Below, piece after piece: positions 30,763 to 34,251 of a DNA stretch of 36,487 nucleotides. This stretch comes from Hydrogenophaga intermedia (lineage in GTDB: Bacteria; Pseudomonadota; Gammaproteobacteria; Burkholderiales; Burkholderiaceae_C), in the NCBI GenBank assembly GCA_945890705.1, contig CAMDCY010000011.1, positions 1 to 36,487 on the forward strand, read 5' to 3'. Below the pieces are notes generated by a model. That model was not told the origin of the DNA, did no database searches, and saw only the letters and a program-made list of their open reading frames with translations. The position numbers and the translations under genes are program-made. The stretch's first letter is position 1; each line of letters begins with the position of its first letter.

Positions 30763-31296
30763 TTAAGTGAGGGCTTGAAACTCGCCAAACTGGCTGCGCC
30801 AAAAGCCCAATGCGGCGGCATCGCGCCAACCAAAGTCTTGCACTTGGCCGATGACGATGTGGTGATCGCCCGCATCCACCAGTTGGTGCAAGCTGCAATC
30901 GAACCAAGCCAATGATTGCGTTAAGCGCAGTCGCTCGCTGCTTTGGCGCACCACGTCAACACCCGCAAACCGCGCGGCCATGTCGCCGGTGGCGAACTGG
31001 CGTGCCAAAAGCTGCTGCGGCTGCGACAAGACGCTGACCGAGAAGCCACCGGATTGGGTGAAGGCTTCCAAGCTGCTGGCGGCTTTGCGGATGCTCCACA
31101 AGACCAAACGCGGCTCCAAGGAGACCGAGGCGAAGGAGTTGCAGGTCATACCCCAATCGTTGTCTTGCCAGCGGGTGGTGACCACCGTCACGCCGGTGGC
31201 AAAGCACGACAGGGCTTTGCGGTAATCGGCAGGGTCGTTGGCGGGCACCACGGGTGCGGCTTGAGCAACAGGTATGGCATCGGGCATGTGGCGCAT
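30763..31296 (-). CDS. smoA: Flavin reductase (SmoA-like), partner of the monooxygenase
   Basis: A 177-residue flavin reductase of the HpaC/RutF-like family. It has the FATGVTVVTT strand (about 32-41), NSFASVSLEPRLVLWSI (about 53-69), and a C-terminal segment ending in GDHHIVIGQV and LGFWRSQFGEF. It should reduce FMN with NAD(P)H and supply it to the monooxygenase encoded two genes upstream. The ATG at 31296 lies just past the aldo-keto reductase stop; an upstream in-frame start at 31491 would read into that gene. The type and position match smoA of the sulfo-SMO cluster. Family is certain; the smo assignment rests on gene order. Confidence 0.8.
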   Translation of the reverse strand: MRHMPDAIPVAQAAPVVPANDPADYRKALSCFATGVTVVTTRWQDNDWGMTCNSFASVSLEPRLVLWSIRKAASSLEAFTQSGGFSVSVLSQPQQLLARQFATGDMAARFAGVDVVRQSSERLRLTQSLAWFDCSLHQLVDAGDHHIVIGQVQDFGWRDAAALGFWRSQFGEFQALT

Positions 31297-31337
31297 GGAG
31301 GCTTTCTTTGGGCTGAGGGGCGTGGTCGAGGGGCCGT

Positions 31338-32249
31338 TCAAGGCACTTCGTGGCCGTTGGCCAGTTCGTAGAGTTCGTACCAGGTTTGGCGGTCCATGGG
31401 CACCTTGAACGCTTGCGCGAAGCTGCCGATGCGATCGAGTTGGTTGCTGCCCATGACGGGTATCACACCGACGGGGTGGTGCATGAGCCAAGCCATGGCC
31501 ACGGCCGTGGTGTCGGTGCCGCTGGCCTTGGCCAGCTCAGCCAGCTTGGGCGCCAAACGTGCTGCTGCGGTGCCGACCTGTGTGGCTTGGCTGTGCAAGC
31601 GACCACCACCGAGCGGCGACCAAGCCATCACCGGCATACGGTGTTGCTGGGCGTGGGGGATTTGCCCATTGATGAAGGGCGCGGTGTGCAGCAGGCTCAA
31701 CTCAATTTGGTTGGTCTGCAACTTGTGCTTCATGCGCGACTGCAGCAAGTCGGTGTCCCAGGGCATGAAGTTGGACACGCCCACACCACGCACCTTGCCG
31801 CTGTCGATCAAGCCGTCCAAGCTGGCGCCCAGCGCGGTGGCGTCGCACAGCGGGTCGGGGCGGTGAATCAACATCAGGTCGATCACGTCCACGCCGATGC
31901 GCTGCAAAGATCGGTCCACGCTGGCCGTGACGTGCGCGGGCGTGGTGTCGTAGTGTTTGACGCGCGTGCTGGGCCACTGCTTCGACAGCAGCATGATGTC
32001 GGTTTTGGTGACGATTTCGATTTGCTGGCGCAAAGCGGGTCGCGCTTTGATGGCCTCGCCAAACAGCGCTTCACAGCGGTAGTCGCCGTAGATATCGGCG
32101 TGGTCGAAGGTGGTGATGCCTTGGGCCAAGCAGGCGTCGATGCGCGCCAGGTTGGCGTTGACGCTGGTGTCGGCGGCCTCGGACAGGCGCCAAACGCCAT
32201 AGGCCATTTGACTGAGTTGACGTCCGTTGGGCAGGGTGATGCGGTTCAT
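31338..32249 (-). CDS. smoB: Aldo-keto reductase, YdhF/SmoB-like
   Basis: A 303-residue aldo-keto reductase. The catalytic tetrad is D49, Y54, K82 and H129 (in FDHADIYG, VTKTD and LIHRPD). YdhF of E. coli is the closest named protein I recognise, sharing HADIYG, CEALFGEA, HRPDPL and AWSPLGGGRL. In sulfo-SMO bacteria an enzyme of this class, SmoB, reduces 6-dehydro-D-glucose to glucose after monooxygenase cleavage of sulfoquinovose. It lies 27 bases downstream of the monooxygenase and 41 bases upstream of the flavin reductase on the same strand. Another sugar-aldehyde substrate cannot be excluded. Confidence 0.82.
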   Translation of the reverse strand: MNRITLPNGRQLSQMAYGVWRLSEAADTSVNANLARIDACLAQGITTFDHADIYGDYRCEALFGEAIKARPALRQQIEIVTKTDIMLLSKQWPSTRVKHYDTTPAHVTASVDRSLQRIGVDVIDLMLIHRPDPLCDATALGASLDGLIDSGKVRGVGVSNFMPWDTDLLQSRMKHKLQTNQIELSLLHTAPFINGQIPHAQQHRMPVMAWSPLGGGRLHSQATQVGTAAARLAPKLAELAKASGTDTTAVAMAWLMHHPVGVIPVMGSNQLDRIGSFAQAFKVPMDRQTWYELYELANGHEVP

Positions 32250-32276
32250 GTGTGTGTTTCGGTTGGGTAAAAAGGA

Positions 32277-33431
32277 TCAGCGGCGAACGCCCACACCCAA
32301 AGGGGTGGCGGGTGTCTGGCTGGGCACGCGACCGTATTCGTGTGCCAGTGAAACGGTTTTGAGCTGGGGCAGCACCTTGGTGCCGAATATCTCGCATTCT
32401 TGCAGGTGTGGGTAACCCGAGAAGATGAAGGCGCGGATACCCATTTTTTGGTAGTCGTGGATGGTGCTGAGCACCTGGTCGACGCTGCCCACGAGTGCCG
32501 CGCCGCAGCCGCTGCGCGCACGGCCCACGCCGGTCCACAGGTGGGGCTCGATGTAGCCTTCGTCGTCCGCAATCTCGCGGTTGGCGCTTTGCAGCGACAC
32601 GCCCAAGCTGGTCGCGTCCAAGGCGCGCTTGCGAATCTCACGGCCTTTGTCGTCGTCGAGTTGGGACACCAGTTCACGGGCGTATTCGCGCGCTTCGGCT
32701 TCGGTGTCGCGCACGATCATGTGCACGCGCAGACCGTAGTCCAGCAGGCGGCCGTATTTTTCGGCTTGGGCGTGCACATCGCGCATGCGCTGGGCCAGCA
32801 CCTCTTTGGGCTCAGGCCACATCAGGTAGGTGTCGCAGTGCGCGCCGCACAGGGCCAGCGCGTCGGGGCTGTAGCCACCGAAATACAGCAGCGGGCCACC
32901 GGTTTGGTAAGGCCGCACGGGGTCGGTGGACAGGCCTTTGATGTTGTAGATCTGGCCTTCGTAGTTGATCTCGTCTTGCGTCCAAGCTTGCTTCAAAATC
33001 TCCACCACCTCCCAGCTGCGGCGGTAGCGGTAAGCGCTGTCTTCTTGCTGGCCTGGGAAGTCTGAAGAAATCACGTTGAGCGTCAAGCGGCCTTCGAGCA
33101 TGTGGTCCAGCGTGGCCACCGTGCGCGCCAGCATGGCGGGCTGCATCTCACCACAGCGGATCGCGCCGAGCATGTTCATCTGTTTGATCTTGGGGGCCAT
33201 CGCGGCCACAAAGCTCAGCGTGTCTTGTCCCACTTGGTACGAGGAGGGGCACAGGATGTTGCGAAAGCCCAGCTCGTCGGCGCGCTGAGCGATGCGGCTG
33301 GTGTTGGCCCAGCTGCTGCGCAAGTCGCCATTGGGCACGCCCAAGTGTTGGAAGTCATCGGAACACAGGGGGGCAAACCAAGCCACTTCTGCGCCTTCGA
33401 TGTCGGCGCCTTTGACGGGGACGATGCTCAT
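32277..33431 (-). CDS. smoC: SsuD-like FMN-dependent sulfonate monooxygenase, candidate sulfoquinovose monooxygenase (SmoC)
   Basis: A 384-residue luciferase-like flavin monooxygenase of the SsuD group, cleaving a C-S bond to release sulfite and an aldehyde. Conserved residues include W205 (YLMWPEP), R235 and H237 (LRVHMIVR), and Y340 and H342 (SGYPHL). As I recall, W206, R236, H238, Y341 and H343 line the sulfonate site of Agrobacterium SmoC, an offset of one; SsuD has equivalents, so these show sulfonate chemistry rather than sulfoquinovose itself. The SsuD N-terminal histidine in LPTH is C23 here, and SsuD Cys54 is not kept. AGAAAGG precedes the ATG at 33431. First gene of the C-B-A operon. 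Confidence 0.82.
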   Translation of the reverse strand: MSIVPVKGADIEGAEVAWFAPLCSDDFQHLGVPNGDLRSSWANTSRIAQRADELGFRNILCPSSYQVGQDTLSFVAAMAPKIKQMNMLGAIRCGEMQPAMLARTVATLDHMLEGRLTLNVISSDFPGQQEDSAYRYRRSWEVVEILKQAWTQDEINYEGQIYNIKGLSTDPVRPYQTGGPLLYFGGYSPDALALCGAHCDTYLMWPEPKEVLAQRMRDVHAQAEKYGRLLDYGLRVHMIVRDTEAEAREYARELVSQLDDDKGREIRKRALDATSLGVSLQSANREIADDEGYIEPHLWTGVGRARSGCGAALVGSVDQVLSTIHDYQKMGIRAFIFSGYPHLQECEIFGTKVLPQLKTVSLAHEYGRVPSQTPATPLGVGVRR

Positions 33432-33448
33432 ACAAGACCTTTCTGCTA

Positions 33449-33481
33449 AAGTGCATGAATAGTATATGAATTGAGGCACTT
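33449..33481. promoter_or_regulatory. Operator candidate between smoC-like and GntR genes
   Basis: AAGTGC (33449-33454) and its complement GCACTT (33476-33481) flank a direct repeat of ATGAAT (33455-33460 and 33466-33471) spaced 11 bases apart. TATACT on the minus strand (33461-33466) could be a -10 for the monooxygenase operon, though I see no -35 to match. The 100-base divergent region (33432-33531) holds no gene. A GntR/UTRA regulator is the expected ligand. Confidence 0.45.
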
Positions 33482-33531
33482 CGTGGCGAGGGATTTCACC
33501 AAGTCGATGGCCTTTTGCCATACTCAGGCGC

Positions 33532-34251
33532 ATGACACAGTCCACCCCCGCCAAACCCCTGCCGGTGTACCTGCAAATTGCCGAACTCTTGGCGCGACAA
33601 ATCAAGGCTGGCCATTGGCGACAAGGCGAGCGTTTGCCCACCGAAGCCGAACTGGCCCATTCGTTGGAGGTCGCGGTCGGGACTTTGCGCAAGTCCTTGG
33701 CCTTGCTGTCCGAACAAGGGGTGCTCGAGCGTATCCAAGGTTCGGGCACCTACGTCAAACAGGTGGCCGGCAAGCAACACATTTACGAGCTGTTTCGACT
33801 GGAGCTGGCCACCGGCCCCGGTTTGCCCACCGCACACATCCTCGATGTCCGGCGCATGCCCCGGCCCCAACATGTGCCCGTTTTGGGCTCGGCCGACAGC
33901 GACCAGGTGTGGCGCGTTCGACGCTTGCGGTTTTTGAGCCAAGTGCCCGTGGCCTTGGAAGAGATTTGGTTCGAGGGACCAGGCCTGGAGGAATTGACGG
34001 CTGGCGACTTGGGTGATTCCATGTACCTGTTCTACCAAGAGCGCTTTGGTGTGTGGATCGCGCGCGTGGAAGACCGGCTGTCGGCTGCCTGCGCACCCGA
34101 TTGGGCCTGTGCGCCCTTGGCGATGCCGGCCGGCGCCAACGCGGGGTTCATCGAGCGCCTGTCTTGGACCACCAACAACACCCTGTCCGAGTATTCACAA
34201 ACCTGGTTCGACCCGGCGGTGTGCCGATACACCTCGCGCTTGAGCCAATGA
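33532..34251 (+). CDS. smoD: GntR-family regulator, HutC/UTRA type (SmoD-like)
   Basis: A 239-residue regulator with an N-terminal GntR winged helix (about 8-75, with LPTEAELAHSLEVAVGTLRKSLALL and GSGTYV) and a C-terminal UTRA effector domain (about 90-235). UTRA domains bind sugars, sugar phosphates or small acids. Divergent from the monooxygenase operon, it most likely represses that operon and is relieved by a sulfosugar or its product. The A-B-C-D order matches smoABCD. Its stop overlaps the next start (ATGA), coupling it to a nitroreductase. Confidence 0.83.
   Translation: MTQSTPAKPLPVYLQIAELLARQIKAGHWRQGERLPTEAELAHSLEVAVGTLRKSLALLSEQGVLERIQGSGTYVKQVAGKQHIYELFRLELATGPGLPTAHILDVRRMPRPQHVPVLGSADSDQVWRVRRLRFLSQVPVALEEIWFEGPGLEELTAGDLGDSMYLFYQERFGVWIARVEDRLSAACAPDWACAPLAMPAGANAGFIERLSWTTNNTLSEYSQTWFDPAVCRYTSRLSQ

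Follow-up and report, generated by a model that had tools for sequence, protein, structure and literature searches.

Gene content of the locus

A 36,487-nucleotide stretch of Hydrogenophaga intermedia DNA (assembly GCA_945890705.1, contig CAMDCY010000011.1; hereafter the window) carries genes related to the sulfoquinovose monooxygenase (sulfo-SMO) pathway. A large amount of organic sulfur exists as sulfoquinovose (SQ); a cluster apparently lacking importer and sulfoquinovosidase makes one ask how the organism feeds. In Agrobacterium, the sulfo-SMO genes run in the order smoA-smoB-smoC-smoD and are accompanied by an importer and a sulfoquinovosidase of glycoside hydrolase family 31 (GH31). The original prediction, made from the window's sequence, recognized this order at 30763..34251 with a nitroreductase and then rep beyond smoD, and held that the importer and sulfoquinovosidase were missing. 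The four genes are indeed present in that order, and the gene after smoD is nitroreductase/malonic-semialdehyde-reductase-like. The core comprises:

30763..31296, minus strand: smoA, flavin reductase (PF01613, 7e-37; start chosen in this analysis within the open reading frame (ORF) 30763-31491)
31338..32249, minus strand: smoB, YdhF-like aldo-keto reductase, by homology a 6-dehydroglucose reductase (PDB 7bby, 4e-100)
32277..33431, minus strand: smoC, SsuD-like luciferase-like monooxygenase (LLM), by homology an SQ monooxygenase (PDB 7oh2, 3e-188; tree)
33532..34251, plus strand: smoD, GntR-UTRA regulator (PF07702 and PF00392), divergent from smoC-B-A

The likely start of smoC is 33431, within a 490-aa ORF that opens further upstream. 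Its product matched PDB entries 7oh2 (E 3e-188) and 7olf (6e-187) far more strongly than Escherichia coli SsuD (7e-54), and SmoB matched 7bby (4e-100) and 7bbz (5e-100) ahead of YdhF (1e-60); the PDB names are generic, and we take the first pair to be SmoC structures and the second to be SmoB structures. The best PDB matches of SmoA, encoded directly behind smoB, were general flavin reductases.

A tree of 91 sequences (the window protein, 85 SmoC rows and five long-branched references) retained 79 of the 80 SmoC loci taken from genome contigs, the omitted one being L011 (a protein from genome G010, 93% identical to that of the window but with a broken frame). The window protein paired with its nearest row, a G411 protein 92% identical to it (support 99/96), within a Burkholderiales clade and inside an 86-row smo clade (node support 87/96). 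Outside this clade fell three Novosphingobium/Rhizobium/Sphingobium-type monooxygenases, one Emticicia monooxygenase and, far away, SsuD. Identity was 47% to the Novosphingobium LLM of a YihQ-type SQ cluster and 32% to E. coli SsuD. The alignment and tree proposed earlier as a check thus gave no clustering with alkanesulfonate enzymes, and we rejected SsuD as an identity for SmoC on this tree, the far weaker SsuD match in the PDB, and a TIGR03565 score of 249 bits, well below the cut-off (518). In a metagenome-assembled genome (MAG) of the same genus, the assembled smoC is interrupted by an in-frame stop (L009, G010:C81, at about 6071-6100).

Contig ends truncate some of the 80 SmoC loci; 75 yielded SmoB, 72 SmoD and 60 SmoA, a recurrence indicating that the smoA-B-C-D grouping is above chance. 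SmoC itself is rare, with 2 of 67 genomes positive in the genus and 13 of 399 in a sample of the family. PDB sequence matches, synteny and the tree support the assignment of 30763..34251 as a putative sulfo-SMO core, as originally predicted.

A candidate sulfoquinovosidase and a candidate importer in the same window

The supposed absence of an importer and a sulfoquinovosidase did not hold, since the window contains a candidate for each in a plus-strand operon at 9678-20050, which is interrupted on the opposite strand by an esterase-like gene:

9678..11243, plus strand: GlpD-like glycerol-3-phosphate dehydrogenase (DAO/DAO_C Pfam; PRK12266 E 8e-90, below cut-off)
11216..12409, plus strand: NAD+-dependent sulfoquinovosidase (SqgA) of GH188, a Gfo/Idh/MocA protein, by homology (PDB 8zn9, 8qc3, 8qc2)
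12382..13359, minus strand: glucuronoyl-esterase-type alpha/beta hydrolase (GCE_fung; PF22244, 1e-19)
13375..14703, plus strand: solute-binding protein (family 1) of an ATP-binding cassette (ABC) importer (PF13416/PF01547)
14790..15791, plus strand: ABC importer permease 1 (BPD_transp_1)
15760..16842, plus strand: ABC importer permease 2 (BPD_transp_1)
16866..17906, plus strand: ABC importer ATPase (ABC_tran and TOBE_2; start chosen in this analysis within ORF 16731-17906)
17903..20050, plus strand: GH31 glycosidase, distinct from the YihQ-type sulfoquinovosidases (PF01055, 1.9e-77)

The product of 11216-12409 matched PDB entries 8zn9 (1.9e-148), 8qc3 (1.2e-110) and 8qc2 (5e-110), the latter two being SqgA structures (PMC10755693). 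According to the same paper, SqgA contacts SQ through K107, Y136, E189, H193 and H321 and forms its sulfonate site from R166, L170 and K172. The window protein is identical at all eight of these ArSqgA positions when aligned to 8qc3 (chain numbering minus 13; Glu163 was omitted, its numbering being one off there). Some GH188 variants carry Tyr at the L170 position (PMC11465081); the window protein has Leu. GH188 occurred in 57 of the 80 SmoC loci, many of them truncated at contig ends; of 14 SmoC-positive genomes in the genus and family, 13 had it, the single miss being a 70%-complete genome. By homology and conserved residues, 11216-12409 is the predicted sulfoquinovosidase of this locus. The glpD ORF end overlaps the GH188 ORF start, and glpD adjoins GH188 also in loci L026, L030 and L117. 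Elsewhere, a Burkholderia multivorans plasmid typed as conjugative (L008, 1-13110) groups GH188 with an IlvD/Edd dehydratase, an aldolase, a short-chain dehydrogenase/reductase, an epimerase and an ABC importer, which looks like a sulfo-Entner-Doudoroff (sulfo-ED) set.

The ABC sugar importer at 13375-17906 is a candidate SQ-glycoside importer, located in the locus and from a family seen inside smo operons elsewhere. Binding proteins of the window type lie beside smo in eight Burkholderiales loci (77–82% identical) and directly behind smoA in L067, L084, L088 (44%) and L154 (73%), and one of the same family is found inside the smo operon of Marinovum; these placements behind smoA and within the Marinovum operon support an SQ-type ligand. 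(A few genes downstream of a Marinovum smo operon, L149 encodes a second pair of LLM-type oxidoreductase and flavin reductase at 15025-17112.) Importer type varied with lineage: the 80 SmoC loci included 24 with the Roseobacter-type tripartite ATP-independent periplasmic (TRAP) importer, as judged by DctP, 12 with the window-type binding protein and 5 with the SBP_bm type. A fold search with the window's binding protein returned general sugar-binding proteins, SmoF being absent among the 50 matches listed; the model (mean predicted local distance difference test (pLDDT) score 64) is too weak for reading ligand contacts. The importer lies outside the SmoF-type ABC family tested.

The esterase-like hydrolase at 12382-13359, between GH188 and the binding protein, has a homologue (45–49%) in the same place in L013, L015, L017 and L026. 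It is possibly a deacylase of the imported head group.

Two separated operons and the predicted pathway

The window is very probably a complete sulfo-SMO locus for sulfoquinovosyl glycosides, judging from its gene content, with two convergent operons split by a block of hexuronate/hexarate genes. In the predicted pathway, the family-1 binding protein and its ABC importer, by their operon position, would bring in sulfoquinovosyl-glycerol or SQ, and GH188 would release SQ and glycerol via transient oxidation at C3 by NAD+, as its homology and residues suggest. SmoA would supply reduced flavin to SmoC, which by homology would cleave the C–S bond of SQ to give sulfite and 6-dehydroglucose, and SmoB, likewise by homology, would reduce 6-dehydroglucose to glucose. 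The glycerol, once phosphorylated, may feed glycolysis via GlpD, and SmoD and a GntR-FCD protein in the hexuronate block probably regulate the two pathways. Since GH188 sulfoquinovosidase and ABC importer candidates accompany the smo core, the pathway itself would be one already known, namely sulfo-SMO with GH188. The novelty is mild and is one of architecture: the ABC importer lies outside the tested SmoF-type family, and the GH31, which occurs also without smo, does not carry the sulfoquinovosidase motif.

GH188, the ABC importer and GH31 lie about 11–20 kb from the core, beyond the hexuronate block. Fourteen distinct loci of Burkholderiales relatives were compared (L155 and L012 are one contig and were counted once; L032 is not in that listing). 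In 12 of them, GH31 is convergent with smoA, smoB or a TauE gene at a distance of 23–101 bp. In the other two, L022 and L154, an ABC importer stands between GH31 and the smo operon, at 4.6 and 4.7 kb. In the window, the gap from GH31 to smoA is 10,712 bp and is occupied by the 10.7-kb hexuronate block, and 18 genes separate GH188 from smoC in this annotation. A published survey around sqgA covered ten ORFs on each side (Kaur et al., PMC10755693). Both candidates being present but displaced is a warning against reading a short stretch: the apparent absence is not real. We did not find the split two-operon architecture described in the openly licensed literature searched, including the available portions of PMC12890257, PMC13372026 and PMC9594981. 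Scans for promoters and terminators gave no signal clearly above that of shuffled sequences.

In the wider loci, Pfam scans covered 40 ORFs and flanking genes; ORF picking was biased in GC-rich DNA, and several had no Pfam match.

The hexuronate block

The genes that separate the two operons are:

20084..21706, minus strand: galactarate dehydratase GarD (TIGR03248, 865 bits, over the cut-off of 731)
21630..22409, minus strand: HpaI/GarL-type aldolase (TIGR02311, 4e-102, and TIGR03239, 7e-91, both below cut-off)
22452..23786, minus strand: glucarate dehydratase GudD1 (TIGR03247, 820.5 bits, just under the cut-off of 828.7)
23799..25088, minus strand: GudD-like dehydratase 2 (TIGR03247, 243 bits; 34% identical to GudD1, 56% to a Burkholderia ubonensis protein)
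25096..28081, minus strand: TRAP importer DctM, DctQ and DctP, hexuronate type (DctQ/DctP Pfam; DctM 44% identical to an annotated TRAP large permease)
28069..29238, minus strand: SMP-30/gluconolactonase (SGL), a lactonase (PF08450, 3e-76)
28962..29786, minus strand: uronate dehydrogenase Udh (PDB 6mfh, 1e-91; 3rft, 1e-88; 3ay3, 1e-84)
29924..30700, plus strand: GntR-FCD regulator of the hexuronate block (PF07729 and PF00392)

The block encodes an oxidative uronate pathway, which SQ use does not require and which the genus has also in the absence of smo. Its GntR-Udh-SGL-DctP-DctQ-DctM-GudD2 portion stands alone in genomes G013, G007 and G066 (proteins 69–93% identical, no SmoC match), part of the block recurs in G028, and the GntR-FCD gene keeps its place beside Udh in L190-L193. 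GC content gave no clear boundary at the block edges.

Two alternative roles for these genes were considered and rejected. The TRAP importer at 25–28 kb might have been a dedicated SQ importer. Its DctP (best PDB match 4xfe, 1e-129) is, however, only 29% identical over 214 residues to DctP of a Roseobacter-group smo cluster, while DctP and DctM are 83–93% identical (DctP 83–87%) to those in the clusters of three genus members, which marks it as hexuronate type. The Udh, SGL and aldolase genes are of types found in sulfo-ED; against that role, the Udh matches are to uronate dehydrogenases, GarD and GudD accompany it, and the block occurs in the genus without SmoC. In two Comamonadaceae/Rhodoferax MAGs (L027 and L028), uronate-type genes (Udh and lactonase, or TRAP) and an aldolase lie upstream of smoD, together in L027 with a 3-hydroxyisobutyrate-dehydrogenase-like gene.

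The GH31 glycosidase

The Arg-x-x-Trp motif (RxxW) is presumably the sulfonate motif of YihQ-type GH31 sulfoquinovosidases. The window's GH31 lacks it (GKQRYVFTWN, against GKRVMWNWKWN in YihQ) and is only 22–23% identical to YihQ; we therefore ruled it out as a sulfoquinovosidase of that type. Two of its Asp residues, D422 and D497, align with those of the YihQ ADFGEY and AGDQ motifs, which we take to be catalytic. RxxW is retained, at 43% identity, by the GH31 of a Novosphingobium SQ cluster, where it stands next to GlpD, GlpK and an LLM monooxygenase. The original prediction had proposed searching the genome for a GH31 with Arg-x-x-Trp: a GH31 is present and the motif is not, and such a check would miss the window's sulfoquinovosidase, because it belongs to GH188.

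We compared this GH31 across the family sample, in which 28 of 399 genomes passed E 1e-150 (identity 42–100%). It is tied to SmoC, being found in 10 of 13 SmoC-positive genomes versus 18 of 386 others. Most likely, the window's GH31 is a hydrolase of another alpha-glycoside entering by the same importer. Its structural model (mean pLDDT 68, with several active-site stretches below 50) is too weak for ligand contacts. In one genome without SmoC or GH188 matches (L157, G189:C51, 5690-12273), a TRAP importer, a GH31 (66%) and a TauE-type gene stand in a row; this arrangement points back to sulfonate and may be another sulfonate-sugar route.

Weighing the interpretation

Several observations weigh against a complete sulfo-SMO locus served by this importer. 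No TauE or sulfate-exporter-type gene was found in the window; a TauE-type gene lies beside smo in G010, G411, L014, L017 and L026, and the only TauE elsewhere in the window's genome is 32% identical. The relatives G010 and G411 have GH188 beside a different, SBP_bm-type ABC importer, which counts against a firm SQ-glycoside assignment for the importer described here. No SBP_bm type was found in the window's genome, but at 82.7% completeness the assembly may simply have missed it. ABC-GH31 modules are found apart from smo as well (18 of 28 GH31-positive genomes had no SmoC match); the substrate of the module need not, then, be sulfoquinovosyl-glycerol.

In a possible, though tentative, alternative, GH31 and the ABC importer form an ordinary unit for a neutral alpha-glucoside or glucosyl-glycerol that adjoins smo by chance. 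Among solved GH31 sequences, those scoring best are mostly alpha-glucosidases; the binding-protein model, although weak, is similar to proteins that bind maltose and oligosaccharides; and the module is often free of smo. Chance adjacency sits poorly, however, with the conservation of the module beside smo in many loci, and an SQ-type ligand is favored by the binding proteins of the same family that replace TRAP in Rhodobacterales smo operons, where the stretch fetched contains no GH31.

A second alternative joins two diets in one locus: sulfoquinovosyl-glycerol, handled by GH188 and SmoA-C, and glucuronosyl-glycerol or another alpha-uronide, handled by GH31 as an alpha-uronidase followed by Udh, lactonase and GudD, with a shared importer and GlpD. 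Associations of ABC-GH31 with uronate genes away from smo are consistent with this. On a B. ubonensis plasmid, the module accompanies Udh (59%) and GudD2 (56%); in L173 it accompanies GudD1 (78%), though the GH31 there is just 42% identical; and a distant GH31 of Nitratireductor (46%) is flanked by TRAP genes on one side and uronate isomerase/mannonate dehydratase genes on the other. In G088, which has no SmoC or GH188 match, GlpK and GlpD adjoin ABC-GH31. Udh was found in all 28 GH31-positive genomes versus 141 of 371 others (17 of 17 at genus level), shares a contig with GH31 in G130 (some 15 kb apart) and G148 (some 24 kb apart), and is near smo in L019 and L027. This statistic is weakened by a control: Udh was also present in 54 of 70 genomes with xylose isomerase versus 115 of 329 others, so that Udh partly marks a sugar-eating lifestyle, and xylose isomerase is itself mildly enriched with GH31 (9 of 28 versus 61 of 371). 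The comparison of 28/28 with 54/70 gave a P of just 0.003. Moreover, among wider-fetched ABC-GH31 loci away from smo, a uronate gene of those searched was present in only 2 of 16 (L147 and L173), and the GH31 active-site loops are modelled at low confidence. We consider the joining of two diets rather unlikely. The broader proposal, that the locus serves both sulfoquinovosyl-glycerol and glucuronosyl-glycerol via one importer and GlpD and that Burkholderiales thereby harvest both anionic glycolipid head groups of plants and algae, is unlikely. We know of no gene set for the breakdown of glucuronosyl-diacylglycerol head groups, and none appeared, by title and abstract start, among the matches listed in openly licensed literature.

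It is quite improbable that GH31 is a second sulfoquinovosidase recognizing the sulfonate in a new way. The idea draws on the association of GH31 with SmoC noted above, on an operon adjoining smo, on the TRAP and TauE genes flanking GH31 in L157, and on the more distant GH188 homologue (40–45%) in 7 of the 11 SmoC-negative GH31 genomes searched for it (of 18). It is countered by the missing RxxW and low YihQ identity, set beside the Novosphingobium GH31 that keeps the motif, by the absence of SmoC and GH188 matches from the other four genomes searched (G088, G189, G215 and G196), and by GH188 already supplying the activity. The proposal that an isolated core uses free SQ or another sulfosugar for want of its own importer and sulfoquinovosidase, as the view of the core and its nitroreductase/rep side alone suggests, is scarcely credible, contradicted as it is by GH188 and the ABC importer in the window and adjoining the core in relatives.

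Our data thus favor a complete sulfo-SMO locus, with the remaining interest in the ABC-GH31 module and in the uronate genes between the operons. The module, conserved beside smo in Burkholderiales, provides a concrete target. The window also encodes (2449-5106, minus strand) an AceE-like E1 protein that passes as well the NCBIfam exception model 'alpha-ketoglutarate dehydrogenase' (1460 bits versus a cut-off of 1408).

Comparison with known systems

The window resembles the Agrobacterium sulfo-SMO (sulfo-ASMO) cluster in its smoA-B-C-D order, in relatives of SmoC and SmoB, and in a locus that includes both an ABC importer and a predicted sulfoquinovosidase. It differs in that its predicted sulfoquinovosidase belongs to GH188 rather than GH31, in that its genome yielded no SBP_bm-type binding protein and SmoF was absent from the 50 fold matches listed, and in the hexuronate block between its two operons.

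GH188 has been found in sulfo-SMO clusters, and those clusters lack a GH31 sulfoquinovosidase (Kaur et al. 2023, PMC10755693). The window shares GH188 and a smoD divergent from smoC-B-A with the Roseobacter-group clusters of that paper. In the four Roseobacter-group plasmid clusters L004-L007, smoA is followed by a TRAP importer and then by a putative sulfate exporter, whereas the TRAP importer nearby in the window is the hexuronate type, with the divergent DctP described above. The Novosphingobium cluster L184 (SquD/SquF type) likewise groups an LLM monooxygenase and an aldo-keto reductase with GlpD/GlpK, but its GH31 is YihQ-type with RxxW, its regulator is a LacI protein, and its monooxygenase is only 47% identical to that of the window. 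Finally, the stretch at 20084-30700 has the gene types of the oxidative hexuronate pathway (Udh, lactonase, GudD/GarD, aldolase and TRAP), which is separate from sulfo-SMO, much of the block standing without smo in three genus members.

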